Shown here: positions 2,909 to 32,960 of the stretch, piece after piece
How positions within the stretch are numbered: position 1 is the stretch's first letter
Layout of the letters: every line of letters starts with the position of its first letter
Assembly: GCA_029962745.1 (NCBI GenBank)
Contig: CM057151.1
Span: 35,144,938-35,208,937 of the forward strand
Reading direction: 5' to 3'
DNA: 64,000 nt
Origin: Echinometra lucunter
Lineage: Eukaryota; Echinodermata; Echinoidea; Camarodonta; Echinometridae
The notes under the pieces: generated by a model
What the model saw: the letters and a program-made list of their open reading frames with translations, nothing else
Told to the model about the DNA's origin: nothing
Databases searched by the model: none
Program-made: the position numbers and the translations under genes

Positions 2909-3152
2909 ATTTTGAAATCTATGGAACAGGCAGCACAAAGACCCCTGCTGATTCTAGGCTTCTGAACCGATCACTAGTATGGAGCACAACAGGACCCTCC
3001 ACATCTGTATCACGAAACACTGGTGGGAGCAGCTCTGGAGAATATGGCATGATGAGTATCAGTAACTCTGCTATGTCAATCCTGGCTAACAATACCTCTC
3101 AAATGTCATCAGCTACATATAGGGCACCGCCGAGAGTTAGCAGTTCAGGAAG
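2909..3152 (+). CDS. MSH4: MSH4 exon a (first recognised)
   Basis: Acceptor CCGCAG, donor AG/GTACAT. It encodes a poorly conserved Ser/Thr-rich N-terminal tail ([17 protein letters not shown] and following). It begins with two bases that complete a codon, so it cannot contain the start codon unless the acceptor is wrong. Confidence 0.7.
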
Positions 3153-12100: not shown

Positions 12101-15100
12101 TAATTTTCTGTAGGAGGAGAAGTGCAATTATTATCTGCATCTAAACCTTATTTTGAAATTATTGTTCCTTACCTTACTGGTCCTTTTCCTAGACCACCAC
12201 TTACTAAAGATGCAGTCCTATTAATTTTCAAACCAACAGTCTTTTTCAGGACTATCCAAATGATGCAAACTGCAAACCTTTTATGTTAGATATGAATTGT
12301 TTGCTATCTTTTTTTTTTCATAGATGAAGAAACAATCAAACTTCGTCTGGATGTTGTGACTGAGCTAACAGAGAGTGAAGAACTGTTTTACAACTTGCAA
12401 TCGGGTATGAAGTCTGTCATTTTGTGAAATGTGATCAAGTGCTTTGAAAAACAGTATTTTCAAATGAGTGCTTTAAATACATAGTCTTTATATATCTCTA
12501 TCTTATAATACCTCTCTGGTAGTTTTCTTTTTTAGCTGTTTGAAAGATTCCATTATATATGATTTCTCTTTAAAGTCAGTTGTAAACTATTGATATTTGA
12601 ATGTTTTGGTTCTTATATTAGAAACTGTTTGCATCTCACTTCTATTTTCTGGGCAAGGGTGTGTAGGGAACATAATGGATGTGAAAAACTGAAGTTTGAA
12701 AAATAATCATCTGATATAAAAAGGAAGTACAGAGCAAAACCACCTTTGCTCAGTTATACCCTAGTTTAATGTTACAAATCTTTCAAGCATATGTGTCTCT
12801 ATTTTGCATACTTGTATGTTATTTTAGGAAACTATTAGGAACTTCATATCATTTAATTAGAACCTGTATAATGATATGTTAGCCGTTTGGACCATAAGTT
12901 ACAGTGTGATCTGTGAAGCAGGATTATTTTTGTCTCGCCCACCGGAGGTGAAGGCGAGACTAAGGGATCCAAATGTCGTCCGTCCGTCGTCCGTCCGTCG
13001 TCCGTCCGTCGTCCGTCCGTCGTCCGTCCGTCGTCCGTCCGTCGTCCGTCCGTCGTCCGTCCGTCCGTCCGTCACAAACGTTATGAAAGATAACTTGGCA
13101 ACCGTGACTCACTTTTCAACCAAACTTGGGTTGTAGATGCACTAAGGGGACCTGCATGTTATGGTCCAGTCAGAGGTCACATGGTAAGGTCAAAGGTCAT
13201 TTCAGGTCAAACGTTAAAGTTTACGTGCAAGACTCTCTTATGACACAAAACTCTGCAACCGTGACTCACTTTTCAACCAAACTTGGGTTGTAGATGCCCT
13301 AAGCGGACCTGCATGTTATGCTCTAGTCAGAGGTCACATGGTAAGGTCAAAGGTCATTTTAGGTCAAACGTTAAAATTTACGTGCAAGACTCTCTTATGA
13401 CACAAAACTCTGCAACTGTGTGACACTGTTCAATCAAACTTGGGTTGTAGATGCACTAAGGGGACCTGCATCTTATTGTCCAGTCAGAGGTCACATGGTA
13501 AGGTCAAAGGTCATTTCAGGTCAAATGTTAAAGTTGACGTGCAAGACTCTCTTATCACATATAACTTTGCAACCGTGACTCACTTTTCAACCAAACTTGG
13601 GTTGTCGATGCACTGAGGGGACCTGCATGTTATGGTCCAGTCAGAGGTCACATGGTAAGGTCAAAGGTCATTTCAGGTCAAACGTTGAAGTTTACGTGCA
13701 AGACTCTCTTATGACTCAAAACTCTGCAACCGTGTGACACTTATCTATCAAACTTGGGTTGTCGATGCACTAAGGGGACCTGCATGTTATGGTCCAGTCA
13801 TAGGTCACATGGTAAGGTCAAAGGTCATTTCAGGTCAAACATTAAAGTTTACGTGCAAGACTCTCTTATGACACAAAACTCTGCAACCGTGTGACACTTA
13901 TCTATCAAACTTGGGTTGTCGATGCACTAAGGGGACCTGCATGTTATGGTCCAGTCAGAGGTCACATGGTCAGGTCAAAGGTCATTACAGGTCAAACGTT
14001 GAACGGTTAAAGTTTACGTGCAAGACTCTCTTATGACACAAAACTTTGCAACCGTGTCACACTTTTCAGTCAAACTTGGGTTGCAGATCACTAAGGGGAA
14101 GTGCATGTTATCATTCTGTTGGACTTCACATGATAAGGTGAAAGGTCATTGGAGGTCATATGTTACAGATGTTTTCAAATTCTTGAATTTGCTTTTCCTC
14201 TGTCATTTCTTGTATTTCAAACGTTAAAGTTTACCTGCAAGACTCTCTTATGACACATAACTTGGCACATGTTGCTGCAATAGCAACCAAATTTGGGTGA
14301 TAGATGCACTAGGGGTACATTCATGCTATTGTGCTGTTGGAGGTCACATGGTATGGTTAAAGGTCATTTTAGGTCAAACATTAAATTTTACCTGCAAGAC
14401 TTTCTTGTGACATCAAACTTGGTTAGGGATGTACTTAGGGAAACTTTTGTGTTATCTAGTCACGGGTGGGCGAGACACAATCTTCCTATTGGCTTGTTCA
14501 TTAACAATAGGTATTGAGCTGTGAATATTTAATTTTTCTTCATCAAACTGTGATTGTATTTCATCATTGTAATAGTTCTGTCTAGGTTTATTGATGTGGA
14601 CCACCTGCTGTCACTGTGTGTTCAAATCCCTAAAGAAGAGTCAGTGAAATCCTCGGAGCAAAAGATAACCAATATCATCTATCTTAAGCACACTCTGGAA
14701 CTTGTTGAACCCCTCCGTATGGCCTTGCAGTCAGGCCAGTCCAAACTACTTCAAGCCTATCACAAGGTAATAAGAGAAAGAGAGAGGGGGGGGGGAACAG
14801 TTGTTCATTTCTATTTGCAACCATTACTTTTCTTTCTTTGTAATCAGAATGCACATCTAAACTAACTTTAGTTTGCTTTTGTGAATACAAGCTAAAGGGA
14901 CTCTGCACTTGTCAATTTGAATGACACTGCAGAATTCAGATCCTTCTGATTATGACCATACATTATAACTACAGACACTGCAGGATACTCGATTTCAGCA
15001 AATCTTGGAGAAGATTGGTACAGTCATCAATGATGAAACCAGATATCAGAAAGGCACCCTTAACATGAGAACTCAGAAGTGCTTTGCAGTCAAACCTGAA

Positions 15101-18100
15101 ATTAATGGTAAGCATCATTAAACAATCTCCAGAAAAGAAATAACAAAATGTCACTCCAAGATGCAAATCAGTGCTAAAAGAATAAAACATTTTGCAAGCA
15201 TATATGTATGTCATGTGAAAAGTTGGACAAACTTTTTTGCATATTGATGATTTCCTATTAACAAAGCCTTTTTTTTATAAGGTTAATATATATGGCTTAG
15301 CAAATGATTTACATATGCAATATATTGAAATGTTTGTTATGCAATATTTTTAATAGGTTTACTTGATGTTGCAAGAAGGACCTACACAGAGCTAGTCGAT
15401 GACATTTCTGGTAATTGAAATATCTTTATACTGTAACATATCACAACATTAACCTTTTTCATAATTTATGTCTTCTTCTACATCATGCTAAACAGGAATT
15501 TACAATTCATATTTCTCAGAAATAATATGCACAATTTTCTCAAAATTTTATTTGTGACCTTATTCTAGTATAGTAGTACTAGTACTGATATAGAATATGT
15601 GTCCACTTTGGATGAAGGATGATAATGCTTTCCACTCTTCTTTGAGAAAAACAGAATTCTTCATGCTCTTCATAAAGTTCCATACACATTTTCTACTATT
15701 TTTTGCTGAGTAGCCCATTTTCGCAAACTTGTCAATGTTTATCATAGTTAAGGGGGGCAGTGTTGTGAAAATTTTGTTTTAAAATTTATATCTGGATATT
15801 AAAGGGGGTACCTAATGCTGAAACAATGTTCCTTCATTTAAAAGAGCATGATTTTATTAGCAGAAAATCATCTGCCTAACATTTAAAAAAAAGTGGTGTT
15901 GCCAAGAAAAACCCAAAATATGGAAAGATTTCATCCTATTTTTGGCCCCTCAACTGTGTCCCAGTTTCAGTTGGGTACCCACAATGACGTCATTGTGGTT
16001 ACCTTGTCGCGTAATTCTAGCAAAATGCGCACAAGGTATCGTACATATTGTACAGTCTAGTGCGCGCCACTACTGCAATGTGCGAACTGGGTAACCACAT
16101 CTACATCATACCTCATACTCAAATTCTTAGGTCAACCCTTGACAGACCACAAGTGATTTGCCAGAATGCATTGATTTTTATTGAAAATCATCAAATTTTT
16201 AATGTTATTGTTCTTAGAATTCTATACTTGATCATATATATATATAAAAAAAAATTGAACCATTGTGTAATCACTTTAAAGAATGAAAAGAACCAGTTGG
16301 TTGAATTACTGTAGCTTATCTATTGATATAGTCATAGTGAACACTCAGTTGTAAAAATGTATGTAATGTCACACTTTGTCATATTATTCTTTTGTACCTT
16401 GCTCCTCAAAATTCATTATTTTCGCAGAGATGGTTAAGCAGCTATCAGATGAACATGGTCTAATGCTCAGGACAAGTTACAGCACAGCAAGAGGTTTCTT
16501 CATACAGCTCTACTGCCGAGGCAAGTACAACATCCCTGTAGAAGCACTACCATCTGTCTTCATCAAGGTCGTGAAGGCCAAGAATATGCTGAGTTTCACA
16601 ACAACTGATCTGGTAGGTGATTTCAATCTCTGTCATTGTTTTATATTTATTGCATATGCCAGAGGTGCCTGAGCCCTACCCCTTATACCATCATTTGCGA
16701 AAGTTTAAGACAACCTTGGAATTTGTGGGTATTTCAGTAGTTTGGAATACATTCTTTTGTCTCATTGAACGATTACATAACATGTTTTCTACCATTGTTA
16801 GTAGCACAAGAGTATTACAGGGTTCCCGCGGTCATGGAAAACCTGGAAAAGTCATGGAATTTTTCATTTGTTTTTCCAGGCCTGGAAAAGTCATGAAAAA
16901 TGAAAAAATCAAGCTATATCATGGAAAAGTCATGGAAATTAATAAATTTGCTTATTTTGACCTTATGATTCAAAATTATGTATTTTGTGACTTGTTATTT
17001 TAAGCTACTTATTTTTTTCTTTCCGAGCGCTGCCAAACAGTGCAGAGAAATCAGCTCCAAATCATGTTCGGCCGACTCTCTCCCGCCATATAGCATGCAG
17101 CATGTATTTGTTTGTGTGTGATTAGGCTTTGTTTTCCACATAAAATTATTACGCAAAAAAAAAAAAGTGCCGATAGTATTTGTGTGTAGAGTCAAGTGTG
17201 AGCGTGAATCAAGGCTGTATGCCACTCAAAATGTTCCTTCAGCCCGTGCCCTACTTCTAGCATATCGCATACACATTCAAAATATTTCCCCCCAAAAGAA
17301 ACAAAAATAGTTCCACCTCCCCCCCCCCCCCTTACTCGTGCATTCAAGCTTCCGTGTACGTATGTACTGATATTTGTGGCATGATATGCGTGCGGATGAA
17401 TATCAATACATACATGCATTACACGTGAAATGAGAGTTTGTTTTTTTGTGTGCGCGACCGAGTGTGAAAATCACGGAAACTCATTCTTGAATGCCGAGAA
17501 ATATTGTTTTATATAGACTTCGTCTAATTTGGCCTCATTACAGATGTTTTGGATGATAATTTATTGGAATTATTTGGAGCATATTTTTGCGATGAGCAGA
17601 TTGAGACATGAAGATCGACACAATCGTAAGCATGTTTTCCCCAGTCCCATATAATGATTTTGGAGTGGTAATCAAGTGTGTATGTGTTGGCCGTTTTTAT
17701 TTTGTGGAAACTGAGACCGAGTGACACTCGTAATTATAATCGTGAAGATCATACGCGGAAAATTATGAACGTCACCGAGCATTTCAATTCATGGACATAG
17801 AACTATTTTCCCCACATTTACAGGATTTACATGATTTTCTTTGCTTGAGAAATAGTTATTTGGAGCTATTCATTTGTGATGTGATTTGTACATGTACCAG
17901 TTGCAGAATAATTTGAACTCGTGAAATGATGTAGGTCAACACTCGACAGATGGTTGAACGCTTGTTTTGGCTGTTTATTTTTTTATCTGTCAAGTGAAAT
18001 TACTACATTACCACAAGAATCATGCCGGGGAAATGTACATTCACGAACAAGTGGATAACAGACCCTAATTACAGTCAGTGGATTTCTAAGGATGCTGATC

Positions 18101-21100
18101 ATAGCAAGGCAAAATGTGTGATTTGCCACAAATCATTTGATGTTAGCAACATGGGTGAAGCTGCATTAAAGAGTCACATGGCAGGCAAAAAACATAAACA
18201 AAATCTGGCTGCTGTCTCTGAATCTTCAAACCCTGGAAGAATTAACACAATATCATCATATTTTTCAAGTCAGGGGAGCAAGTCATCTTCGACATTAAGT
18301 TCTGAATCTGTACCATCAACTTCAAAGGGTACCTCGAGTGCTACGGATCGAGATATGTCATCTTATCTCACCCCCGATTCTGTGTTCAAAGCAGAACTGA
18401 TATGGACCATGAAACTGATAGATTCTCATAACTCGTATAACTCTGCAAAGAACATTTCCAGTCTATTCGGTTTGATGTTTCCAGACAGTGAAATCGCATC
18501 TAGATTTACATGTGGGGAGGATAAATCAAACTACCTAGCTACATTTGGATTAGCCCCTTACTTCACTGCCCGTATGAAGGATAAAATACGGGGTGCTGAT
18601 GAGTATGTACTGCTATTTGATGAGAGTTTGAACAAGAGCATGCAAATGAAGCAATTAGACATTCATGCAAGATTTTTTGACTCTGGAATTGTAACTACTC
18701 GTTATATTGGATCAGAATTCATGGGACATGCTACAGCCAACGACCTTCATGACAGGATTTTGCCAGTTATTCAAGACTTGGGCACCAGTAACCTAGTACA
18801 ACTATCAATGGATGGTCCAAATGTCAATTGGAAACTCTTCGAACTTCTCTGTGAAGATGTCAGTAAAGAGCACAAGAAAAGCCTCTTGAACATTGGAAGC
18901 TGTGGCATGCACGTAATGCACAATGCATTTCGTAGTGGTTGCATAGGATGTGGGTGGGAGATAGAAGAAACTTTGTGTAGCTTGCATCGTCTTTTCAAGG
19001 ACTCTCCCGCCAGAACAGAGGACTTTGAAAAAGTTACCAACTCAACAACCTTCCCCTTGAAGTTTTGCAGACATCGATGGTTAGAAAACCAGTCTGTCAT
19101 GGCCAGAGCACTGGAGGTAAAGCCAAAATTAGATCAGTATGTTCAGGCAGTGGAAAGGAACCAAGCCCCAAATCCCAAAACGAAGACATGTGAAACTGTC
19201 CGGAGTGCTATCAAGGATCCCCTGTTCGAAGCAAAGGGGGAATTCTTTCTCTCCATTGCGAGAGAAATAGAACCATTTCTGGCAGATTATCAGACAGTCA
19301 GCCCCATGATTCCATTCATTGGAACAGACATTGTCAAAATTCTGAAGAGCCTGATGAGGAGGTTTGTGAAGGATGATATCTTAGCTGCAGCAAGTACGCC
19401 ACTTAGAATCAGTAAGCTAGAGCTGAAAGATGAGAATCTAAAAGACACATCACAAGTTGACATAGGGTTTGCCACAAAGCAAGCAGTCACAAAGGCAAAG
19501 AAAAAAGTCAGTGAGAGAGTCATCTATCAGTTCAGAAATGACTGTCGCAAGTTTCTACTGAATGTGACTAAGAAACTCTTGGAGAAATCGCCAATCAAGT
19601 ATAGTCTTGTACGCACTGCAAAATGGATGGATCCAGAAGAAATACTGAAGGATGGGGCCTCCTGTGAAACAGCTCTTACGGCAACCCTACAAGTCTTGGT
19701 GAATAGTCAGTATGTGAATGGTAGGGACTGTGATAGAATCCTTAGTGAGTATAGGGAAATGATGGCAGGAGAAGTCGTTGACCTTCACAGTTTCAAGAGG
19801 AAGGACATGAGGTTGGACAAGTTCTATGCAGGTGTTGGAGAAAGCAAACAATTAATGAACTTGTGGACAATCATGAAACTTCTCATGTGCTTGTCACATG
19901 GACAGGCAGATGTTGAAAGGGGATTTTCGGTTAACAAGGAGGTGGAAGTAGAAAATCAAAAAGAGAGAACATTGGTCGCAAGAAGGATCATTGTTGATCA
20001 CATACGTACGGCAGGAGGAGTCATGAATGTGGGAATAACCAAGGAAATGCTGTCTCATGCAAAGCAAGCTAGACAGAGGTACAGGACATTTCTGGAGGAA
20101 GAGAAGAAAAAGAGGATGGATGAACTTAAAGGGGAGAAGCGAAAGCTATTGGAGGATGAAATAGACAGCATGAAAAAGCGGAAAGTGCAGCTGGAGAAAG
20201 ATGCATGCTTCCTCCATAAAGAGGCCGACTCCACTGCGGAATTAGCAGAGAAGGGTGGAGACCTGTCACTACTGGCAAAATCCAATGCTATGCGGAGGCG
20301 TGCCCGGGAAAAAGATGCAGAGGCTCAAAATGCTGAGCAGTTAATCAAGATTAAAGAGGGAGAGCTTGTAGATTAGGTGGGTAAAATTGATTACTTTGTT
20401 TCTTTTTATGTCATGACAGTTACATGTAAATATGTTTGTCTCAGAGGTGCTTGAAACAGGTAAATTGCGAGCCATGCGAGGTTAATATTGTCATGGAAAA
20501 TTGACAAAAATGCATGGAAAAGTCATGGAAAAGTCATGGATTTTTTTTTTAATGGAAGGTGCAGGAACCCTGGTATTATGAATCCATTGAAAATAAATGT
20601 ATGTCTGAAAACTAAATATGATTGACTCTGATTTTTCCTTGAGTTTTTGCATTTTGGAAGAGTGGTCTTAAACTTTTGCAGATGATGGTGTTACCAATTA
20701 TGCTATAGACTCTGAATTGGACGAGTTATTTTACAAGAAATGTATTGATTAATGCTGGGACAGTGGAGGATTCTGGGGAGGGAAAAAAAGGTTAAACCCA
20801 TCTAACAATCTACTCAGACATGTATCTGTTTTAATGCTCATTATTCCAATTAAATATAACATCGTAAATGGCAGAAAATGTGTCAAAAGAGTTTTCGAAA
20901 TATTGCTGACTTGCCTTGTTTGTGTTTTTGAGGGCATGTTATAACTGTAATTCTGACGAATGAACTTCTGAACAATGGAAGTGCCTTATGTAGCAAAGTA
21001 TTGTATAATTTAGCTTCACATCTAACTTCTAATTCTCTCTCTTATATTTGTGCCTCACAGATCAAGATGAATGGTAAGTATTAGAGCTTATGAGTGAAAT

Positions 21101-24100: not shown

Positions 24101-27100
24101 TGTAGACATCCCCAGTTACCTGCTGCACATTATAATTTAAGCTATCTTAAGCTGATGTGAAACCATTTCAGAGGTTTAGGGCTTCTATCCATAAAGTTAA
24201 GATCATTCAATGCTCTGGAGGAGGATACTTTGCATTGGGCATAGTTACATTGCTACTCCCTAACCTACAGAGTGCACTAAAATAGCCAACAGCATCACAC
24301 TCTTCAGTTGCTTGATTTTTATTTATTTTACTTTTTTTTTTTCTTTTTTTTTGGGGGGGGGGGGAGATTATTTGTTTGTTTGTTTGTTTGGTTGGTTCTT
24401 TGTTTATAAGATTAAGATCACATATATCATATGGATCAATATCTGACTACATTATCTGACAAATGCTCAGATGCCTGTGCAAGCAGAGTTTGGATGCAAC
24501 TGATCAATTAGGTAATAAGCTTAGGCTTACATATATCATAAGATTAAGACCATTGAATACATTGTCTCAGAAACATGCAGATATGTGTTAAAATAGCCTG
24601 TGCTATCTTCAACTGATATAAAAACAACCAGTAGCACTTTGGAAGAGACTAGATATTTAGATCACAAGACCAAGCTCGATTAGATCATAAGATCAAAACC
24701 AGGCCCCCTATAGCTCCGCCATTTTGTTCAAATTCATTAGAAGGCTGATCTAAGCATGCATCAATATTCATGACCAAAATTGAATAATTCATTTCTTAAT
24801 AAGATGCTTCCCACAAGTAGCATGCGTTTGTACATGTTTTGAAACATTACGCCCATCAGCTTACTGCATGCGCAATAAATGCTCAACAAATGCGCAACTG
24901 ATTTGCAACAAAAGCACATCATTAAATCAGAGTGTCACAATAAACTGATACACATAATAGATATGAATAATGCAACAGTGTTATCAATATCATGGCAATA
25001 ACGGGTGCTTATCGGCCCCTTCAAATGAACCGAAAGAGGTGGGGCCTCATGCCATTCGCATATTGATATCCGCGCGTGCTGCTTTCTGTCTAGTAAATTT
25101 ATTATTATGTCTATGATCAAAACCAACGGATTAAACATATTGTATAATCTTACAAGCACACTGATGTGGTCATTTAGGTAATGGGTTTAATTGACTTATG
25201 ATCAAGATTACTGTGAACAAGATCATTGAGTACACTCCTACATATTTGGTTTTGCCTCTGCATATATGTTTTCTTTCTTTTTTTTCATCATCTTCTCTAT
25301 GCAGTGGGACCAGACTTAATTTTATTATTACCAGTAAATTTATTATGTCTATGATCAAAACCAACGGATTAAACATATTGTATAATCTTACAAGCACACT
25401 GATGTGGTCATTTAGGTAATGGGTTTAATTGACTTATGATCAAGATTACTGTGAACAAGATCATTGAGTACACTCCTACATATTTGGTTTTGCCTCTGCA
25501 TATATGTTTTCTTTCTTTTTTTTCATCATCTTCTCTATGCAGTGCGACCAGACTTTACCGATACCCTAGCTATCAAGCAGGCCAAGCATCCTATCTTGGA
25601 CAAGATCTCTTATGATCCACCAGTTCCAAACAACATTGTAAGATTATGTGTGTGTTTTTTTCCTAGTATTGTTTTTTGTTTTCTGTTTTGGGTTTTTTAA
25701 AAGTAACTTTCGAAATATGTTGGCATTCAGCATGCATTCATTTCAGTGTTGTATCAATTTGATTTTAAGTGCCCTGTCTCTTGATTACCAGGTTTAACTT
25801 CACTGTGGATTAAGTTTGGTATATTTTTGTCTCATTGTACCATTTTAATAACCATGCTATTGACCTCTGCACAGCATTTGCAGCAGAGTCTCCGTTGCAA
25901 TTAACCCATAGAGGTACAGTGTCACCTTTAGGAGATGCTTTTGCAGTATCTGTTGGTTCAGAATGTTAGGCAGCACATATCATACATGAGCAGAAAGAGA
26001 AAAATGCACTGACAAATTTGAGCCCATTCCCATCGCTGTATGGTGTGGCGTTCTCGAATTAGAGCAGTTTAATTGTAACTAATCATTAAACTCTTTAAAT
26101 TGGCAACGCAGTGAATAACATAATCACTATTTCTGTGTTCAAATTGGCAATTTCTGATTCAATTTTACAATTTAATTTTGGTTAATGTTATATCCATATT
26201 TATTTTTTTTCAAGTTATGTAAATGTGGAAAAAAATAATTTGTATTGCCAATTTGAGGATTGAAGATGATTAATTTAGACCTCTAGAAAGCTCTGTACTG
26301 CTATGGGTTAAAGCTTGGCTAGGTATTTAACCGAGGGTTAATATTTAGATCAGACTTAAACATCAGTTAAATAATCCCCCTCTGTCAGAACGCCAAGGAG
26401 ACTTAAACCACACTTAGACCAGAGGTGAGGTTTAAGTGTGGTCCAGTGAACCCAGGGTGAAATTTTCTTTCAGGTTTTAACTTGAACCTGCTATCAGTAC
26501 AGACCAATGTTTACACTTTGATGTAGAGAGAAAAAAGGAGGCACGATACCCTAAAAGCATTAGGCTTGTGCCCGGGGGGGGGGGGGGTACTCGACCCCAA
26601 AAGTGGTAGGTATGTGCCGCGGGCGAGATAAAAAAACGGGGGCTTTGGAATGGGCTTATTGTGAAAAGGAGGGTCTTCGGAACGGGCTTCGCAACTACAA
26701 ATGTTTGTGAAAACGGGGGTCTTTGGAATAGTTCGCATGCGCGTGAGTGCGTATGTATCCCTATGGAACGGGCATACGTGCATGCAGCTAGCCCGGCGGC
26801 ATGATTTTTAGGGCTTTGCATCATAAGATTTAAGGCCAAACCACAAAATGTGGACCTCTGTCACGAATGGGTTAAGACATACACCATGTGAAATACTTTT
26901 TAGAGAAACAAATAAAAAGGAGGAGACAAGAAAGAAGAGAAAAAGAAAGAAAAGAAAGAAAGGGATAGGATGTGAGAGACAGGAACGGAGTTTACTTTGG
27001 TATATAGATTATATTTGTTATAAGTTATTCAAGGTGTGGAAGAAAAGAGGAACTTGGGACTTCATTGGGATTTGTCTTTATATTTATTTCCAGTATGCAT

Positions 27101-30100
27101 CAGAGGAGAGCAACTTCATTGTCATCACTGGTCCAAATATGGTCAGTATGAACATTTCCCTTCGTTTTACTTTACTGCATTACATCAAAATATATCTGCC
27201 ATTGCTAAGAGATCACTATAACGGTGTTTTCTTGAGGCTTTAACATATATACTAATGTGTCTATGTGACATTTACAATGAAAGACATGAATGGTTGAGAG
27301 AGAATTTATTGCAGCAGGGTGGGTAGGAAAACATAGCATGATATCTGACTCCAGAAGCTCTGCTCCTACTAAGTTTACATCATTCACTGTGATTGTATGC
27401 TTTGTGATGTTAAAACATTTTACTGCAGTGGATAATTTTGTTATGTGTCAACTTGTCAAACTTCTGAGGCCACTTTATTGTCCTACCTATCTATAGAGTG
27501 GCAAGTCCACCTACCTGAAGCAGATAGCCCTGCTGCAGATCATGGCTCAGATTGGTTGCTTCATCCCAGCAGAATATGCTTCCTTCAGGATCTGTGATCA
27601 AGTCTTCTCAAGGATTGGATGTGATGATGACATTGAGACCAATGCTTCTTCCTTTACACTAGAGGTATGAATACTAGAGTGCCTTTTCCATCGGTCATTT
27701 CAGTTTTTTCACTTCATTATTCAGGTAGGAGAGATAACATGGACAATTTGAGGTGAAATATAGTATGATATTAACTTTCCACATGTATTTGAAATTCAGA
27801 GTAAGTCGCCCAAACTTATTTTGTTTCTGTTGGATTGAATAAATGGTCCCAACAGCTAACATTCTACAAAAAGGTTTGATATAGGGGTCCCTTTTCTGAT
27901 CAAAGACTTCTGTTACATCATGTTATAGATGTTTTACCAGATTACTATCTTTTACTACTTTTCAGTAAGTTCCTTTGATTTATAATAAATTTTTCAATGA
28001 AGACTGCTTTTAAGTGTTTGTGAATTGATCTTGTATTCAATTTTTCATATCTCATATCTCTCTGTCCATTAGATGAGAGAAGTGAATTACATTGTTCAGA
28101 ACTGTACACATGAATCTCTGGTTATTGTTGATGAACTTGGAAGAGGTGGGTGTAATTACTTCAGAATGTTTGGGACCAGCCAGAGGTCTGAAATTAGCAA
28201 TCTTTAGGTGTCCCCAAACCCTTACTGTGCAGACCCACTGTGCTTAAGCATTTTTAGTATGCAGGCATTTAGAAGCTTTCCTTTCTTTTACTAATGGGCA
28301 GTATAATACAGTGGTATAGAAGCTGCTACACCAATATTTAGATTAATCTTAATATCATACATTCAGTAGTCGCTTGAATTTACTTATATTTGTTGTACCA
28401 CTTACATACCTGCCAACTGTTCCTATTAAATAGGAATATTCCTATTTTGGGGGAATGAAAATTGCTATTTTAGCCCGTGTGTTCCTATTTCTGTACAAAT
28501 TTGTCTGTAGTATTGAATAGGAAAATAAGGAATGTTCCTGTTTTTGAAAAATTTTTGAATAATTTGTTCCTATTTCTTGGCTGTCAGGGTTGGCAGGTAT
28601 GGACTTAGTGCCTTATCCATGAAGTTCCATGCAGAGTATTATTGTATACATTAGATTTGTCAATATCAGAAGAGCTTGGCATCCTTCGTAGACATGAAGT
28701 GAGAACATTTATTGTGATGTTAGCTGATCATAGAAAGAATGAAATCTCTCTCTCATCTTCATGTGTGAGGCCAAGGAAAAGTTTAGATAATGCAGAAAAC
28801 AATCTTTTAAAGTCAAATTATATAGTCTTAGCTCCTGTACAGTTTTGGTAGCAAAATGAAAATTGGCATGAAACTAACTAAATATAGTTTCACATTGTCC
28901 ATCTTGCATAAGAAGATACATGAGTTAGATTGTGTGATATCCAGTCATAATTTCCAGTGAATTTTAGTGTAAATGTCTGAAAGGAATGCAATGGAACAGT
29001 TACACTCTGCCTTACGCTATGACCCTTGCATCTGACTGCTCCCCACATAACATTAATACCTCTTAGAACTCTGCTTGGTTTCACACGTGTGCAGGCGCTG
29101 TGTGATGCACATGGGATGTTGTTGACTTTCAATTGCAGGGACCGTAAACAAAGTTGATTTTGATTGTAAAATACACTCACTTAAATGAGTTTTTATGTAA
29201 TATCCTTCGCATCATAATAATTATGGGATACATTCTTTCATATCGTCTGGCAATGAATTCAAATAATGAAAGATACTTTTATTAGAATTTCCAAAACTAT
29301 ACATTATCTTTTGTAATGGCACAAGAAGGGATTTGCAGTGTTGCGAATCGTCACTACTTTGTTACTCTTCTGGAAATTCCTACCATTAAATAAAAGGGTC
29401 TCAGGTACTAGTGGTGATGAAGTTATAGGGATCTGTTGTGCCATTTGTGAATTCAGACTCAGTTTCAAGGCATTCTCATTCTTTGAAACACACTTTAGAG
29501 ACTTCACAAACCTTATAAAGATTTGTAGGAGGTACTAGCAGTACTGAAGGTATAGGGATCTATCAAGCCCTCTGCAAATGCAAGACACAGTATCAAGACA
29601 TTCACATTCTTTGAACACACTCACCAACTGAAAGTTATTGATAATGATGACTTTTAGATTTATAAGTAGTGAAGAAGGGGAATCTACTTGTATTATGCCC
29701 TCTGTGAATATCTCCTCAGTCTCAAGGCATTCACACTCTTTGCAACACACTTCCTAAAACTCATCAGCCATATCTTTATGCTTTTATCAAGGTACCAGTA
29801 GTGATGAAGGAGTAGGGATCTGTCATGCTATCTGTGAATACCTTCTCAGCCTCAAGGCATTCACATTCTTTGCCACACACTTCATGGAACTCACCAGTCT
29901 GGATGCTCTCTACCCCAATGTTGAAAAGTAAAGACCTATTCACATGTAGTGGCAAACCCTGTGGTAAACCAGCAGTTTTCTTTGTGCGTAAATGAATGGT
30001 ATTTTAGGAGACAAAACAAAAACCTGCAGAGGTAAAAATTGTCTTTTGTTCTTACTGGTGGCAAAAAGATGTAAACCAATCAAATTCTTATAAAGTTAGA

Positions 30101-32243
30101 AAATGCACCTTCACAAGCATTTTATTTGAATGTGAATTATGTATGCGGAGTCATCATAAGTTGTATGGTTTACCACACCATAAGTGAACACCTAAAAATC
30201 TGAAGGGGTTTTCTAAGGGGGTTTGTTACTGGATGTATGAATGAGCCATTAGTTCCTTGTTCTGCTTCATTTAATGAGCAACCAACAAAGATTCATATAA
30301 TAATGTTCTGCTTCATTTAATGAGCAACCAATAAAGATATCGTTGCCTGGCTGGCAGAAGGGCGGTAAAGCGCGCGCACTGTATCTTCACGTATCGTGCG
30401 TTAGAGCTCCTGTCCTTCCGCCAGCTGGGGAGAAGTATAAAATTGCACACCCGCGTTACTGCCCTTCTGCCAGCTGATTGTATGATAGAAGAATGTTCTG
30501 CTTCATATAATGAGCAACCAACAAAGGTATGATTATATGATAGAAGAATGTTCTGCTTAATTTAATGAGCAACCAACAAAGATAAGATTATATCACTTTC
30601 GCCACAAGGCTTCAATGGCAGTTCATGCTTTGGGGTTTTTTGTTTGTTGGTTTTTTGTTTTTTTTTAGCTTTTCACTATTTATAATTCTGATTTTGTAAT
30701 TGAATTATATCACAAAGTTTGTTTCTTTTTTTAAAAACTTCTTTCAGTACACTATGAATGAGTGGATGAGAAGAAGAAAGATTAGTAATAGAAATATATG
30801 TATGAAGATGGTTTAGCCTGATAAGATTAATTTTTGTCACGGCTAGTATCAAAAGGAAATCCAGATGTGTCAGCCATTGCCTTGGAGGAAAACAAAACAA
30901 ATAAGAAAGCTGTACTGATGGAAATGAAATTATGTAAATGATAGCAAAAAATATGAGCTTTTTGAAATCACCATATATGTGTATAGGAAATTCATATCAA
31001 TATTCATATTCTTCCAGCTACCATTTCCAAGTAGAGCAGTGTACAGCTGAGGGAATGGACAGCAATAGACTCAACTACACACACATTCTATCAAGAGGGA
31101 GAACAACAGAGCAGTACTATGGTAAAACATTCATTTCACTAGCACCTTGAATGCCTAGGAGAAGACCTGGAATGGTTTTAATAATTACTGCCTCAGTCAC
31201 ACTTTTAAACCTACTCCAACGGACTCAAAACTGAAGGATTCTTCAGCAAATTACAGCAAATGTAATTTCTTACTTAGTTTTGATGGTCTCTTCAATGCAA
31301 CCTTGGTGTATTAAAGTCCCTTCATGCGGGCATGATTTAGCTTTTACAAACGTGTGTTAGATGAACTCTGGTGAGACAAGTTATCAATTATTTTATTAGC
31401 ATTTATCCTTGTGTATCTTGGTATTATTCATAGTATCCATCTTTAAATTTCACAGATCAGTGTTGAAATTCATGACAAATTCAAGGTCCTTGTAAAACAA
31501 TATGGCAATGTAGATGTGGTATTAAAGTTTTGGCACTGAAAAAGTCAAACTCCTGTAGATGCCACACATTATTAGGCAAAATAAAACTGTTATTGAAAAA
31601 AAAAAGTAGTTTATATTTTATTTTAAAATGCCTGTCTCTTATTTACAGGTATCAAGTTAGCAGAAATATCCACTCTACCACCTTCAATCGTCAGAGAGGC
31701 CAAAGCACTGTCCCAAAGATTGGCACACGAAAGAAAGGTAAGCACCTTTTCCACTTAAAAAAAGGATTTGGTTTGCATATTTAAAACTAGTCTGAAAGTT
31801 GTTAATTTACAGTAAAGCCATTTAGCTTTAATATTGAAGAGCTGCCAAGCAGCACTGAATGTTCAGTAATTCATATTAAATTTTTAAACCAGTAGTTTTA
31901 TACAAAAGCTTGTGCATTATTCTCTTGAATCTTTCTGTGAAATATTTGTTCCCACAACAAGATTCCAATATTAAATCATTAACTATAGTACCATTTTTTT
32001 TCCCCAGTATAAATCGCAGCTTTGTATTATGACTCATTGTATACGCAAGATATATTGTACAAACAAAACAACAAAAAAAAACAGAAACATGAAGGTGTGA
32101 ATGTAATTAAATGCTTTTTCTTTTCTGATAGATATACTAAAACTTGAGGTTATTGATTGCCCAAAGTAGGGTAACTGCAGGAGGCTTTAATTTCGTTTAC
32201 AACATTCAAACATTTTTTTTCTTGTATTTATATATATATATGT

Positions 32244-32279
<36 letters not shown>

Positions 32280-32654
32280 GTAATATTGGATGTAGAGTGT
32301 AATATTGCTGCCATTAGAAAACAAGATGAACAACATGCTCATTCTTTGTACTGCATTAGCATGCAGTATTTGCACTCTACAAAACTAAGTTAATTCTGTC
32401 CATTGAAATTCACGATTACCCCTCTGTAAAATCAAGTTTAAACACCAAAATTTTAATCTTTCCTCTATCATGCTTTCCCACAGACCCAACAGGACTCTGT
32501 CAAAGAGTACCAGAAGATGAGACCACTGTTCCGATTGGCCAACAGGCTGATCCAAGCTGCAAGGAGTTCCAAGTTAGACCAGGCTGGTCTGAGAGAGTAT
32601 CTTAAAGCACTCAAGGAGAACTACTTCAAGGAGATGGGGTCATCTGAGGAATGA
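2909..32654 (+). CDS. MSH4: MSH4, meiotic MutS homologue 4 (25 coding exons, 5' end incomplete)
   Basis: MSH4 pairs with MSH5 in a meiosis-specific clamp that binds recombination intermediates in the nucleus and promotes crossovers; it is not a mismatch-repair protein. Twenty-five exons were placed by matching translations to known MSH4 and checking GT-AG sites and phase: 2909-3152, 3620-3768, 5068-5153, 5569-5631, 6135-6258, 7935-8001, 8762-8883, 10411-10515, 11986-12024, 12324-12404, 14576-14766, 14975-15107, 15357-15410, 16428-16612, 21061-21073, 21972-22017, 22517-22641, 25543-25637, 27094-27141, 27497-27664, 28073-28145, 29792-29927, 31018-31121, 31649-31737, 32484-32654. They sum to 2711 nt, two partial-codon bases plus 903 codons including stop; human MSH4 has 936 residues. 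The order is Ser/Thr-rich tail, MutS connector, core/lever, then ABC ATPase with Walker A GPNMSGKST and Walker [10 protein letters not shown]. The first exon starts in phase 1, so an upstream exon is needed. Confidence 0.95.
3620..3768 (+). CDS. MSH4: MSH4 exon b
   Basis: Acceptor TACTTAG, donor GTAG/GTATGT. It encodes more low-complexity N-terminal tail with a repeated [12 protein letters not shown] stretch, ending in SSVLVA just before the conserved VEGRG block. Phase fits both neighbours. Confidence 0.8.
4434..4470. repeat. GA-rich microsatellite
   Basis: An interrupted GAGAGA/GGGAGAGAGAGG tract inside the intron between MSH4 exons b and c. Confidence 0.6.
5068..5153 (+). CDS. MSH4: MSH4 exon c
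   Basis: Translates to [20 protein letters not shown] and then QSELILSQ, a near match to the first conserved block of animal MSH4 (the start of the MutS connector). Acceptor GTTTAG, donor CAG/GTACAC. Confidence 0.93.
5569..5631 (+). CDS. MSH4: MSH4 exon d
   Basis: Twenty-one codons starting [15 protein letters not shown], matching the connector region. Acceptor TTACAG, donor GAG/GTAAGT, phase 0 at both ends. Confidence 0.92.
5756..5995. repeat. intronic tandem duplication, about 155-bp spacing
   Basis: The segment starting TATATAGAGGCTTATTCAAA and ending TTCATGAAATGCCT occurs at about 5756-5850 and again at about 5911-5995 with a few substitutions. It lies between MSH4 exons d and e. Confidence 0.7.
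6135..6258 (+). CDS. MSH4: MSH4 exon e
   Basis: Encodes [20 protein letters not shown] through [12 protein letters not shown]; the last segment is a strong MSH4 signature. Acceptor CTCACAG, donor AAAG/GTAAGT. Confidence 0.94.
6369..6748. mobile_element. piggyBac-like MITE (CCCATTCGTGACA ends)
   Basis: CCCATTCGTGACA at the left is inverted as TGTCACGAATGGG at the right, followed by TTAA; the left flank is TCAA, a one-base change. The CCC-type ends and TTAA target are typical of piggyBac-derived elements. The terminal 67 bp recur in opposite orientation at 26805-26871. Confidence 0.6.
7291..7548. repeat. 89-bp minisatellite, about 3 copies
   Basis: Units start GAACTCTCTATTATGAGGTT at 7305, 7394 and 7483, exactly 89 bp apart, each ending TTTTCATGTTTAGGAAGATG. 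Few differences between units, so recent expansion. Confidence 0.85.
7582..7690. repeat. GGACTC hexanucleotide repeat
   Basis: Two blocks of imperfect GACTCG/GGACTC repeats. Read on the minus strand they give a spurious Ser-Glu repeat frame. Intron between MSH4 exons e and f. Confidence 0.75.
7935..8001 (+). CDS. MSH4: MSH4 exon f
   Basis: Encodes [20 protein letters not shown], continuing the connector domain. Acceptor TTTGCAG, donor CAAA/GTAAGC. Confidence 0.92.
8762..8883 (+). CDS. MSH4: MSH4 exon g
   Basis: Encodes [20 protein letters not shown] and [18 protein letters not shown], one of the best conserved MSH4 blocks. The acceptor is TTGTTAG after a long T/TTTTG tract. Confidence 0.94.
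9245..10030. mobile_element. non-autonomous DNA element with AAAGCG-rich ends
   Basis: The left end near TTCACACCAAAC...AAAAGCGTTTT and the right end GAAGCGTCATG...GGCAGTGTGAAAA are roughly inverted. AAGCGTC/AAGCGTTTT motifs repeat at both ends and the centre is AT-rich. Boundaries are approximate. No coding capacity was recognised; short frames inside are not supported. Confidence 0.45.
10411..10515 (+). CDS. MSH4: MSH4 exon h
   Basis: Encodes [20 protein letters not shown] and [14 protein letters not shown], the start of the MutS core. Acceptor TTTGCTAG, donor GGAG/GTAAAT. Confidence 0.93.
10953..11945. mobile_element. GTCTCGCCCACC element with a 157-bp tandem array (truncated copy)
   Basis: It starts TTTTTGTCTCGCCCACCGGAG, then AAGGGATCCAAATGGCGTCCGTCC, then about six units with GACTCT at 11061, 11249, 11404, 11561, 11718 and 11874 (155-157 bp spacing for the regular ones). 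The right terminal repeat seen at 14466 is absent. It ends about 40 bp before MSH4 exon i. Confidence 0.8.
11986..12024 (+). CDS. MSH4: MSH4 exon i (39 bp)
   Basis: Short exon encoding [12 protein letters not shown] (human: RLRSNILEPL). Its acceptor lies only about 45 bp beyond the 3' edge of the upstream 157-bp repeat array. Confidence 0.9.
12324..12404 (+). CDS. MSH4: MSH4 exon j
   Basis: Encodes [20 protein letters not shown] and FYNLQS, core domain. Acceptor TTTCATAG, donor CGG/GTATGA. Confidence 0.92.
12927..14482. mobile_element. GTCTCGCCCACC element with a 157-bp tandem array (complete copy)
   Basis: TIRs: left ATTTTTGTCTCGCCCACCGG, right CACGGGTGGGCGAGACACAAT. After the left end comes an 11-bp GTCGTCCGTCC repeat, then 157-bp units with GACTCT at 13231, 13388, 13545, 13702, 13859 and 14024, then more diverged units. 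There is no transposase, so it is presumably moved in trans. It fills most of the intron between MSH4 exons j and k. Confidence 0.85.
12980..13072. repeat. 11-bp GTCGTCCGTCC minisatellite
   Basis: About eight head-to-tail copies of an 11-bp unit form the 5' module of the surrounding element. They give a spurious [14 protein letters not shown] frame that is not a gene. Confidence 0.85.
14576..14766 (+). CDS. MSH4: MSH4 exon k
   Basis: Encodes [20 protein letters not shown], then [20 protein letters not shown], core/lever region. Acceptor GTAATAG, donor AAG/GTAATA followed by a G-rich tract. Confidence 0.94.
14975..15107 (+). CDS. MSH4: MSH4 exon l
   Basis: Encodes [20 protein letters not shown] and [13 protein letters not shown], near identical to the human block. 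Acceptor CTACAG, donor AATG/GTAAGC. Confidence 0.94.
15357..15410 (+). CDS. MSH4: MSH4 exon m
   Basis: Encodes [17 protein letters not shown], a highly conserved core segment. Acceptor TAATAG, donor TCTG/GTAATT. Confidence 0.93.
15803..16275. mobile_element. TTAA-flanked MITE, family AGGGGGTACC, copy A
   Basis: TTAA lies at both 15799-15802 and 16276-16279. The body from AGGGGGTACCTAATGCTGAA to CATTGTGTAATCACT matches 46870-47338 along its whole length. It carries a GTACCCACAATGACGTCATTGTGG palindrome with a CRE-like TGACGTCA. Intron between MSH4 exons m and n. Confidence 0.75.
16428..16612 (+). CDS. MSH4: MSH4 exon n
   Basis: Encodes [29 protein letters not shown] and the end LSFTTTDL (clamp and lever). 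Donor CTG/GTAGGT; the following 4.4 kb intron carries the hAT transposon. Confidence 0.94.
16818..20572 (+). mobile_element. hAT-like DNA transposon with an intact transposase frame
   Basis: The left end CAGGGTTCCCGCGG (16818) is inverted at the right end GCAGGAACCCTG (ends 20572). Both are flanked by GTATTA (16812-16817 and 20573-20578), probably the remains of an 8-bp target duplication. Subterminal CATGGAAAAGTCATGG motifs repeat near both ends. The element is 3755 bp, sits in the sense direction in the intron between MSH4 exons n and o, and contains the 784-codon gene at 18022. Confidence 0.85.
18022..20376 (+). CDS. hAT-like transposase with BED-type zinc finger, 784 aa
   Basis: The transposase would act in the nucleus to bind the element's ends and cut and paste it. 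The start is the first ATG, a few bases after an in-frame region without upstream coding. Residues 11-58 form a BED/C2H2-like finger: W11, W20, C32-x2-C35, H52-x5-H58 with [18 protein letters not shown] Ser/Thr-rich linker follows (about 64-112). The RNase-H-like core has acidic candidates in VLLFDESLN and LSMDGPN and a [10 protein letters not shown] segment. Near residue 630 is [17 protein letters not shown], the hAT C-terminal dimerisation signature. The last 100 residues are a Lys/Glu-rich coiled coil, an unusual extension. It is one uninterrupted exon with no stops, unlike most elements here, so the copy is young or under selection. The closest relatives cannot be named without a search. 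Confidence 0.85.
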   Translation: MPGKCTFTNKWITDPNYSQWISKDADHSKAKCVICHKSFDVSNMGEAALKSHMAGKKHKQNLAAVSESSNPGRINTISSYFSSQGSKSSSTLSSESVPSTSKGTSSATDRDMSSYLTPDSVFKAELIWTMKLIDSHNSYNSAKNISSLFGLMFPDSEIASRFTCGEDKSNYLATFGLAPYFTARMKDKIRGADEYVLLFDESLNKSMQMKQLDIHARFFDSGIVTTRYIGSEFMGHATANDLHDRILPVIQDLGTSNLVQLSMDGPNVNWKLFELLCEDVSKEHKKSLLNIGSCGMHVMHNAFRSGCIGCGWEIEETLCSLHRLFKDSPARTEDFEKVTNSTTFPLKFCRHRWLENQSVMARALEVKPKLDQYVQAVERNQAPNPKTKTCETVRSAIKDPLFEAKGEFFLSIAREIEPFLADYQTVSPMIPFIGTDIVKILKSLMRRFVKDDILAAASTPLRISKLELKDENLKDTSQVDIGFATKQAVTKAKKKVSERVIYQFRNDCRKFLLNVTKKLLEKSPIKYSLVRTAKWMDPEEILKDGASCETALTATLQVLVNSQYVNGRDCDRILSEYREMMAGEVVDLHSFKRKDMRLDKFYAGVGESKQLMNLWTIMKLLMCLSHGQADVERGFSVNKEVEVENQKERTLVARRIIVDHIRTAGGVMNVGITKEMLSHAKQARQRYRTFLEEEKKKRMDELKGEKRKLLEDEIDSMKKRKVQLEKDACFLHKEADSTAELAEKGGDLSLLAKSNAMRRRAREKDAEAQNAEQLIKIKEGELVD
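21061..21073 (+). CDS. MSH4: MSH4 exon o (13-bp microexon)
   Basis: The bases ATCAAGATGAATG lie between CCTCACAG and GTAAGT and encode IKMN plus one base. This bridges LSFTTTDL to [11 protein letters not shown] exactly as IKMNE does in human MSH4. Skipping it would shift the frame. Confidence 0.9.
21275..21350 (-). repeat. tRNA-derived SINE head
   Basis: Read on the minus strand, GGAGGTGCTGTGGCTCAGTC followed by GTAGAGCAGTGG is a good polymerase III box A. A degenerate box B lies at CCCGGTTTCAAAACC. There is no tRNA cloverleaf good enough for a gene. Intron between MSH4 exons o and p. Confidence 0.6.
21614..21945. repeat. fragment of a dispersed repeat (ATACCCTCCCCAAACGAAG type)
   Basis: It begins with the self-complementary ATACCCTCCCCAAACGAAGTTGAAGGGGGTAT and continues with two diverged blocks sharing GAAATCTGGCACAC / GAAATTTAGCACAC. 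The 3' limit is uncertain. Confidence 0.4.
21972..22017 (+). CDS. MSH4: MSH4 exon p (46 bp)
   Basis: Encodes [14 protein letters not shown] (human RCQESLREIYHMTY). Acceptor CTCTGCAG, donor ATGT/GTAAGT. Confidence 0.92.
22517..22641 (+). CDS. MSH4: MSH4 exon q
   Basis: Encodes [20 protein letters not shown] and [16 protein letters not shown], the strongly conserved segment before the ATPase domain. Acceptor TTTGCAG, donor TATG/GTACGT. Confidence 0.95.
22722..23022. mobile_element. MITE with GGGGCGTTCAGATATGAGGC ends
   Basis: Near-perfect inverted ends of about 36 bp: GGGGCGTTCAGATATGAGGC... and ...GCCTCATATCTGAACGCCCC. A related element with the same end motif lies in the srGAP gene at 46047-46403. 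Intron between MSH4 exons q and r. Confidence 0.8.
25091..25558. repeat. 238-bp tandem duplication covering an MSH4 splice acceptor
   Basis: Copy 1 (about 25091-25318) and copy 2 (about 25332-25558) are almost identical. Both run from TAGTAAATTTATTA-like sequence through the polypyrimidine tract and TCTATGCAG into the exon start. GCAG occurs at 25301-25304 and 25539-25542, offset 238. Copy 1 loses exon homology about 14 bases after the AG. Confidence 0.9.
25543..25637 (+). CDS. MSH4: MSH4 exon r
   Basis: Encodes [20 protein letters not shown] and [11 protein letters not shown]. Its acceptor TCTATGCAG and about 210 bp of upstream intron are duplicated just 5' (see 25091-25558); only this copy carries the full exon. 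Confidence 0.94.
25905..26307. mobile_element. piggyBac-like MITE (CCCATAG ends, TTAA flanks)
   Basis: CCCATAGAGGTACAG and CTGTACTGCTATGGG are inverted, with TTAA at 25901-25904 and 26308-26311. The body contains AAATTGGCAA segments shared with 6369-6748. A third copy at about 46519-47360 has been interrupted by another element. Intron between MSH4 exons r and s. Confidence 0.8.
26568..26871. repeat. G-rich repeat fragment followed by a MITE end
   Basis: CCCGGGGGG-type sequence with GGGTACTCGACCCCAAAAG and repeated GGAACGGGC/GGAATGGGC words up to about 26780. After it, 26805-26871 is the reverse complement of the 6369 MITE end, closing with GGG-TTAA. It appears to be one insertion into another; the other MITE end was not located. 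Confidence 0.45.
27094..27141 (+). CDS. MSH4: MSH4 exon s (first half of Walker A)
   Basis: Encodes [16 protein letters not shown]. The intron splits the Walker A P-loop between GPNM and SGKST. Acceptor TTTCCAG, donor ATG/GTCAGT. Confidence 0.95.
27497..27664 (+). CDS. MSH4: MSH4 exon t (second half of Walker A)
   Basis: Starts [20 protein letters not shown] and ends [14 protein letters not shown]. It supplies the catalytic P-loop Lys/Ser-Thr and the DDDIE (Q-loop to signature) region of the ABC ATPase. Confidence 0.95.
28073..28145 (+). CDS. MSH4: MSH4 exon u (Walker B)
   Basis: Encodes [20 protein letters not shown] followed by ELGR, the Walker B motif. Donor GAG/GTGGGT. Confidence 0.95.
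28404..28601. mobile_element. MITE with CATACCTGCCAAC ends
   Basis: CATACCTGCCAACTGTTCCTATT on the left and the inverse TTGGCAGGTATG on the right. The interior is built from repeated TTCCTATTT/GGAATGTTCCT words. About 200 bp. Intron between MSH4 exons u and v. Confidence 0.7.
29405..29791 (+). pseudogene. three decayed tandem copies of MSH4 exon v
   Basis: Copies start at about 29405, 29532 and 29660, spaced 127-132 bp and abutting the functional exon at 29792. Copy 1 follows a plausible acceptor (GTCTCAG) and stays open through [19 protein letters not shown], but its switch motif reads FETHF instead of FATHF and no donor is visible at the right place. Copy 2 starts [14 protein letters not shown] and reaches a stop at the FF position. 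Copy 3 is frameshifted after about eight codons. The unit is essentially the exon itself, so this is local tandem amplification, not retroposition. Confidence 0.85.
29792..29927 (+). CDS. MSH4: MSH4 exon v (D-loop and ATHF switch), functional copy of a tandem set
   Basis: Encodes [34 protein letters not shown] and LDALYPNVE, the segment after Walker B with the ATH switch histidine. It is the last and only intact member of four head-to-tail copies (29405, 29532, 29660, 29792). Acceptor TATCAAG, donor AAAA/GTAAAG. Confidence 0.94.
29935..30197. mobile_element. diverged MITE (TTCAC...GTGAAC ends)
   Basis: Left ATTCACATGTAGTGGCAAACC with TGGTAAACC, right GTATGGTTTACCACACCATAAGTGAACAC, inverted but imperfect. 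A partial relative with the same GTGCATAAATGAATGGTA internal words lies at about 60235-60420 in srGAP. Confidence 0.5.
30255..30590. repeat. minisatellite of about 41-57 bp with a MITE inserted in it
   Basis: Four units with TTCTGCTTCATTTAATGAGCAACCAA(C/T)AAAG start near 30258, 30306, 30495 and 30549. Between units 2 and 3 lies a GC-richer block with inverted ends (30353-30472). Confidence 0.7.
30353..30472. mobile_element. short MITE with CTGGCAGAAGGGC ends
   Basis: Left CTGGCAGAAGGGCGGTAA, right inverse TTACTGCCCTTCTGCCAGC. About 120 bp and GC-rich compared with its surroundings, inserted into the AT-rich minisatellite. Confidence 0.7.
31018..31121 (+). CDS. MSH4: MSH4 exon w
   Basis: Encodes [20 protein letters not shown] and [14 protein letters not shown]. 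Aligns with the human HFEVQHVKN...YTYKLSKGLTEEKNYG region. Acceptor CTTCCAG, donor TATG/GTAAAA. Confidence 0.92.
31649..31737 (+). CDS. MSH4: MSH4 exon x
   Basis: Encodes [20 protein letters not shown] and SQRLAHERK (human LKAAEVSSLPPSIVLDAKE). Acceptor TTTACAG, donor AAG/GTAAGC. Confidence 0.93.
32236..32278. repeat. AG dinucleotide microsatellite
   Basis: A TATATATATA run followed by about 20 AG units in the last MSH4 intron. Confidence 0.8.
32484..32654 (+). CDS. MSH4: MSH4 exon y (last coding exon)
   Basis: Encodes [20 protein letters not shown] through [10 protein letters not shown] and a TGA stop at 32652-32654. This is the C-terminal helical tail that contacts the MutS partner in the family. 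Decayed copies follow it. Confidence 0.92.
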   Translation, partial: TQQDSVKEYQKMRPLFRLANRLIQAARSSKLDQAGLREYLKALKENYFKEMGSSEE

Positions 32655-32689
32655 TAGTATTGAGAAACAAGAATGTACATGAGAGCTAC

Positions 32690-32960
32690 CTTCCAACTTG
32701 ACAACAAGACTGATCCAAGTTAGACTGTGCCATTTTAAGAGAGTGCCTTAATGCTCTCAAAAGAGAGCTTCTTGTATTTGAAGATGGGATCTGCATAGGA
32801 ATGACAGTATCAGGCAGCTTGAACCTGCAACCATGGTTCCTACTGGCCAACAGGTTGATGCAAGCAGGACCGGAATGGTTGCAAAGACTGCCAAGGAAAG
32901 TCACTTCAGGTACATGGGATCTACATCATCTGCTGCTGAGGAAATATCTGAATCAAAGCG
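32690..32960 (+). pseudogene. decayed tandem copies of the last MSH4 exon
   Basis: The exon word TTGGCCAACAGGCTGATCCAAG (32535) recurs as TTGACAACAAGACTGATCCAAG at 32698 and CTGGCCAACAGGTTGATGCAAG at 32843. Each is followed by diverged versions of the rest of the exon, including GATGGGATCTGCATAGGAATGA near 32785 and TACATGGGATCTACATCATC near 32914. They lie downstream of the stop, in what should be 3' UTR. Confidence 0.75.

Follow-up and report, generated by a model that had tools for sequence, protein, structure and literature searches.

Three decayed partial copies of an MSH4 exon upstream of the intact exon: probable intronic relics of an old tandem duplication in an urchin

Tandem exon duplications have been described as homologous exons lying next to each other, head to tail, in one gene, some of them unannotated (Ivanov and Pervouchine 2022, PMC9013439, as far as the available part of that article goes), and the array of MSH4 exon copies reported here is arranged likewise. 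The same part of the article gives the share of exonic nucleotides with a homologue in their own gene at an identity of at least 80% as about 2% in human, 0.08% in D. melanogaster and 0.06% in C. elegans. Since the human share differs from those of fly and worm, no value can be taken for granted in urchins. Compared with the duplications in the accessible text of PMC9013439, the MSH4 copies differ in that they abut without introns, are truncated, donorless and decayed, and in that mutually exclusive use of them was unseen. The classification tool Exonize (PMC12343006) is meant, among other things, to detect intragenic exon duplicates that are degenerate or missing from the annotation, such as the MSH4 relics, and the available sections of that paper contained no MSH4 case.

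The closest published anatomy that we found, going by the extract of PMC4974935 at hand, is that of the potato RdRp gene, where a tandem genomic duplication spans the 3′ splice site and a new intron was reported. The likeness would lie in the creation of a second acceptor and in the exonic part of the upstream copy turning intronic. The MSH4 array differs in having no demonstrable shared polypyrimidine tract and in giving no sign of a new intron. A reproductive gene is concerned as well in the Senegalese sole, where exons II and III of the sex determination gene dmrt1 were duplicated intragenically and the duplication was present in cDNA, but was unseen in the other fish analysed by the same authors (PMC7605655, available portion); the MSH4 copies, unlike those of dmrt1, are decayed. 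No earlier description of an MSH4 exon array was found among the open-licence PMC papers listed. Neither a new splicing mechanism nor a new MSH4 function is shown by it, and it appears to be an ordinary relic of exon duplication.

The host gene lies on the + strand, from about 2.9 to 32.7 kb of the window, by which we mean the whole 64-kb stretch of DNA that was analysed. It is MSH4, judged by a match of the intact exon region to MutS domain V (PF00488, MutS_V, Pfam, E 2e-10) and by best-match orthology. A search of a protein database with a hand-joined query of its exons gave 1906 matches, and at the top of the best 120 of these 1906 stood the MSH4 proteins of Diadema setosum, Asterias rubens, Acanthaster planci, Amphiura filiformis and Lytechinus pictus. 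The predicted product is identical to that of Lytechinus pictus in 572 of 619 residues without a gap, and to that of Diadema in 659 of 772 residues with one gap. By these matches the source is most probably a sea urchin closer to Lytechinus than to Diadema. The refined exons, from about 5064 (an exon whose own 5′ border is approximate) up to and including the stop codon at 32652-32654, contain 773 codons free of stops, and all 22 introns of the refined model are of the GT-AG type. The following parts of the gene are needed here, with splice borders marked by a slash:

~2896-3048 and ~3618-3764, + strand: N-terminal exons of MSH4, rough placement only
16612, + strand: MSH4 donor
21061-21073: MSH4 microexon of 13 nt, ATCAAGATGAATG, coding for IKMN plus one base
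25543-25637, + strand: MSH4 exon
28073-28145, + strand: Walker B exon (..VIVDELGRG) with donor GAG/GTGGGT, placed by tblastn with Diadema and Lytechinus MSH4
31018-31121, + strand: next MSH4 exon after the array (YHFQVEQ..), placed by tblastn
32484-32654, + strand: coding part of the last MSH4 exon with the stop codon, placed by tblastn

The microexon has good splice sites and is flanked by introns of 4.4 kb and 0.9 kb, and the full MSH4 frame is open once it is included. The original prediction had named the gene and the repeated exon, with its GTSSDEG and FATHF motifs, and was right on both counts; the exon is the one after Walker B. Its "D-loop" we take to be the segment after Walker B and its "switch" the histidine of ATHF.

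Three relics are arranged head to tail immediately 5′ of the intact exon, which is the one that follows DELGRG and carries GTSSDEG...FATHF. That they are homologous and how they are ordered was read directly from the DNA, as were their frames, their splice motifs and the pattern of substitutions. The four units are:

29403-29529, + strand: unit 1, AG/GTACTAG.., exon-like over about 29405-29510, an open frame and then a stop
29530-29658, + strand: unit 2, relic with GTSSTEG.., a frameshift and an in-frame stop
29659-29789, + strand: unit 3, relic with a net +2 shift near its start and FATHF in another frame
29792-29927, + strand: unit 4, the intact MSH4 exon of 136 nt, acceptor ..TATCAAG/GT, donor AA/GTAAAG (Pfam, tblastn)

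The exon starts fall at 29405, 29532, about 29661 and 29792, and the units begin at 29403, 29530, about 29659 and 29790 when the AG is included. The extent of 29405-29927 given for the array by the original prediction was thus correct, its start becoming 29403 if the AG of the first unit is counted. We compared the intact exon with its flank (29780-29940) by blastn with the whole 64-kb window, accepting E values up to 0.01. Besides the match to itself, three matches were obtained (80.6% over 93 nt, E 3e-20; 78.6% over 103 nt, E 4e-19; 75.3% over 93 nt, E 6e-11), and the window contained no further copies detectable in this way. This result means that the array is not due to chance and is not a repeat dispersed within the 64-kb window. 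The array is real, and the predicted homology of the upstream units to the exon, head to tail, was borne out by the alignment of the four units and by the three significant blastn matches. Tandem Repeats Finder with a minimum score of 40 did not call it.

A single sequence stands behind the observation, as would be the case for an assembly artefact or the collapse of a repeat. The units, however, differ by about 22-40% and carry distinct indels, a pattern that misassembly of one locus does not yield, which leaves this explanation next to no probability.

The repeated segment comprises the AG at the exon start and reaches some 105 nt into the exon. The units were said to be almost exactly the exon, which does not hold: they measure 127-131 nt, the exon 136 nt (29792-29927), and alignable homology ends about 105 nt into the exon. 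Homology to its 3′ end and donor was undetected in all three upstream copies. Only the tail of unit 3 gave a weak signal against the 3′ end of the exon, with p = 0.0095, a value that includes 10 nt already known to be homologous and becomes 0.13 without them. In the tails of units 1-3, homology to the sequence 5′ of unit 1 was likewise undetected (p = 0.54, 0.59 and 0.97). The AG/GT is retained at units 1, 2 and 4; in unit 3 an AG is absent at the aligned exon start. No intron-sized spacer lies between the units. Without the 3′ end and donor of the exon, the three upstream units cannot be interchangeable exons, and to call the array a tandem set of exons was an overstatement. Adjacent, head-to-tail homologues within one gene are present, full-length copies with acceptor and donor are not, and the continuous frame that mutually exclusive exons need is lost in copies 2 and 3, both frameshifted. 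The array is a tandem exon duplication in the loose sense only and falls outside the stricter definitions by splice sites and frame.

The copies are decayed to different degrees. Copy 1 was predicted to have a CAG before its exon start, an open frame and FETHF in place of FATHF, and all of this is seen in the sequence: CAG precedes GTACTAG, the frame is open from the exon start through ...KICRRY, and the alignment to the exon is free of gaps over about 105 nt. Its match to MutS_V reached 18.5 bits (E 0.0021), below the curated cut-off of 30.2 bits, and its residues at conserved positions, including G7V, L18R and A28E, were shared by none of the 120 homologues listed. Copy 2 retains GTSSTEG, then loses the frame and stops, and copy 3 retains FATHF out of frame, owing to the net +2 shift near its start. 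Of the statement that only the last copy keeps GTSSDEG and FATHF, the part that concerns the in-frame pair of motifs and the donor stood, whereas the out-of-frame FATHF of copy 3 is an exception to it. The spliced frame of unit 4 stays open into the next exon.

We consider the array to be an old, decayed tandem duplication of a partial MSH4 exon, the upstream copies of which are neutral intronic relics, and give this reading a probability of about 0.86. At least twice among the ancestors of this sea urchin, the AG and some 105 nt from the start of the exon behind Walker B would have been duplicated in tandem. The intact downstream copy, having kept the 3′ end of the exon and the donor, would have stayed the coding exon, and the upstream copies would have ended up in the intron, to be spliced out with it and to drift without detectable constraint. 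The working 3′ splice site would as a result now lie 387 nt downstream of that of the first unit. We infer that splicing of the intron always takes the relics out with it and that, of the acceptors, the first is ancestral. The copies were presumably produced by replication slippage or unequal exchange, like the other tandem arrays of the window.

Whether the relics could be spliced was judged from the acceptor and donor motifs. An acceptor matrix was built for the real site from the 21 other MSH4 acceptors, and all 101 AGs of the intron were ranked. The real acceptor (29792) scored 3.5 and ranked fourth of 101; in leave-one-out scoring, the 22 accepted MSH4 acceptors ranged from −1.0 to 16.7. 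The acceptor of copy 1 at 29405 scored −2.2, rank 24 of 101, below each of the 22 accepted ones. Ranks were little different with an earlier set of 21 introns (copy 1 30th of 97, the real acceptor fourth). The other candidate acceptors of the relics scored −1.4 at 29529 (rank 20), −4.9 at 29532 (rank 36) and −1.0 at 29658 (rank 18), and two AGs within unit 3 scored −0.4 at 29670 (rank 16) and 1.2 at 29720 (rank 10), again of 101. From 29403 to the real acceptor there are 29 AGs, and 28 of them meet a stop before the real exon ends. Three sites deserve a line each:

after 29404, + strand: donor-like site CAG/GTACTA, score 5.4
after 29531, + strand: donor-like site GAG/GTACTA, score 5.3, second in the array only to the one after 29404
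29768-29791, + strand: segment behind the sole stop-free relic acceptor (the AG before 29768), use of which would place eight further in-frame codons (AISLCFYQ) ahead of GTSSDEG

The two donor-like GTs, which speak against the relic reading, outscore the real exon's own donor (−0.2), and the one after 29531 belongs to the top 6.2% of the 1795 GTs at 2-33 kb.

These motifs bear on the proposal, made in the original prediction, that copy 1 could act as a poison exon or an alternative one. If 29405 were used as an acceptor, with or without a cassette end at 29531, MSH4 would be truncated shortly behind Walker B and its dose lowered. The CAG at 29402-29404 and the good donor-like site after 29531 (5.3) are compatible with such a use, and either reading terminates at or shortly past ..KICRRY; the 127-nt cassette (29405-29531), if spliced, shifts the frame and stops in the next exon. 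The acceptor, on the other hand, is the weak one described above (−2.2, 24th of 101, below all 22 accepted acceptors), the substitutions in copy 1 look neutral, and no database protein containing copy 1 was found at lengths of about 271-861 residues (one candidate, which did not score) and 68-217 residues (no candidate), although a transcript targeted for decay would be hard to see there. The searches missed ordinary MSH4 too, and because of this, and because the species' own proteins are not known to be among the entries, their negative outcome is weak evidence. We conclude that the proposed role of copy 1 is unsupported and a regulated poison exon improbable, with only a slim chance that copy 1 is spliced at a low level as the 127-nt frame-shifting cassette in control of MSH4 dose. 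If it were, the dose of a meiotic crossover gene would be controlled by a dead copy of its own ATPase-switch exon.

Even less probable is a minor alternative 3′ splice site at 29768, in unit 3, by which some transcripts would gain the eight codons before GTSSDEG. It is the sole open in-frame AG among the 29 in the relics, yet it is weak (−3.0, rank 28 of 101) and lies 24 nt from a better acceptor. In addition, none of the 120 MSH4 homologues listed showed a gap or insertion inside the exon, in an alignment that does not test the junction itself. Intron gain by duplication of AGGT was another candidate that we set aside: the units do begin with AGGT, but the 5′ end of the intron (GTGGGTGTAATTAC..) has, by eye, no likeness to the unit start.

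The substitution pattern was compared with that of simulated pairs consisting of one neutral copy and one constrained copy (omega 0.05), with transition bias and the total change matched, and with substitutions only. Copy 1 differs from the intact exon by 10 synonymous and 16 nonsynonymous changes over 35 codons, copy 2 by 7 and 13 over 26 codons, the indel-bearing 3′ part being left out. The nonsynonymous fractions of 0.62 and 0.65 compare with a neutral expectation of 0.64-0.68 (SD 0.08-0.09). For copies 1 and 2 an omega of 0.25 is disfavoured, 0.97-0.99 of the simulations lying at or below the observed value; with an omega of 0.5 this proportion was 0.74-0.91, and such a half-neutral rate is compatible with all three relics. 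That copy 1 has neither a stop nor gaps over about 105 nt would speak against neutral decay, but the absence of a stop is no rarity in a neutral sequence: 59-64% of the neutral simulations of copy 1, limited to substitutions, had none, and a simpler simulation gave stop-free proportions of 0.59-0.81 for 25 to 10 changes. A simple dN/dS of 0.28 (0.22/0.78) had looked low and made purifying selection on copy 1 a candidate; a simulated neutral copy gives the same total, and the candidate was dropped.

In copy 3 the counts were 6.5 synonymous and 5.5 nonsynonymous changes (P = 0.04-0.07 under neutrality), over 24 of about 35 codons. This gives a weak hint that copy 3 may have been constrained before it decayed, a signal that is favoured by the choice of the better-aligned part, the frameshifted 5′ part having been left out. 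As far as the substitutions allow one to say, a neutral copy next to a constrained exon is a good match for copies 1 and 2 and a borderline one for copy 3, and the relics look like products of neutral decay.

The lean of the 24 aligned codons of copy 3 towards synonymous change and its preserved FATHF stretch, together with the compatibility of copies 1 and 2 with an omega of 0.5, would also be expected if the copies had formerly been in use as variants of the exon before they decayed. We regard this as unlikely, though less so than a poison exon: none of the three relics has the exon 3′ end or a donor, there are no intron-sized spacers, and neutrality fits copies 1 and 2.

An old tandem duplication is also what the relationships among the units point to. 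Aligned and placed on a quartet tree, copies 1 and 2 group against copies 3 and 4, as ((1,2),(3,4)), with lnL −398.2 versus −404.0 for both alternatives, that is 5.8 units better and given here as a likelihood difference with no bootstrap. The branch of copy 4 measures 0.05 substitutions per site, those of copies 1, 2 and 3 measure 0.13, 0.28 and 0.21. With branches of 0.13-0.28 versus 0.05 for the intact copy, and with frameshifts in copies 2 and 3, the divergence between copies and the decay of the upstream ones agree with what had been predicted. Copy 1 has N (AAC) at a residue where Diadema and Lytechinus have N and copies 3 and 4 have S, which points in the same direction as the tree; copy 2 has AAC at this codon in the by-eye alignment only, MAFFT placing the stretch differently. 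By the tree and the branch lengths, the array is most likely old and the product of two or more rounds of growth.

Other tandem duplications touch exons of the same gene:

25102-25555, + strand: tandem duplication, period 238, 99% matches (Tandem Repeats Finder, blastn)
32714-32810, + strand: decayed copy of the last exon, like 32568-32660 (71%, blastn), 3′ of the stop codon
32821-32865, + strand: decayed copy of the last exon, like 32513-32557, 3′ of the stop codon

The duplicated segment at 25102-25555 holds an intron end and an exon start: within the 238-bp unit lie the polypyrimidine tract and acceptor of the MSH4 exon 25543-25637, together with its first 13 nt. An identical copy of tract and acceptor is present at 25305, and its use would shift the frame and lead to a stop. 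This duplication has the anatomy of the potato RdRp case, as far as the available extract of PMC4974935 describes it, and is possibly recent or polymorphic. One gene carries both an old duplication and a near-identical one (238 bp, 99%), a pairing that could help to date such events across urchins. Behind the last exon, a weak further match to it extends to 33037.

Exon-touching arrays made up three of seven tandem arrays in MSH4, versus 1.4 expected by random placement (P = 0.14, not significant); the seven were picked post hoc as calls of Tandem Repeats Finder in the gene with a period of at least 50, overlaps merged, plus two decayed arrays that had not been called. Small tandem duplications are thus common in MSH4, and some strike exons by chance. 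Background duplication accounts for the exon array. The gene clearly illustrates how a tandem duplication that reaches an acceptor can be absorbed, the last copy remaining exon and the earlier ones turning into intron.

Other features of the window concern mainly the introns. Over positions 1-64000, no Rfam family at its gathering threshold and no tRNA (ARAGORN) was detected. An insertion resembling a DNA transposon occupies 16687-20689 in an MSH4 intron and is bordered by inverted repeats of 28 nt (89%), the longest of 16 pairs. It contains an open frame of 783 codons (18025-20373) that gave no match to Pfam models at E up to 0.01 or to NCBIfam models at E up to 1 and has an N-terminus that looks zinc-finger-like by eye. 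A tandem satellite of about 157 bp forms two blocks in MSH4 introns at 11046-14165, both of them preceded by simple repeats of the CGTC type.
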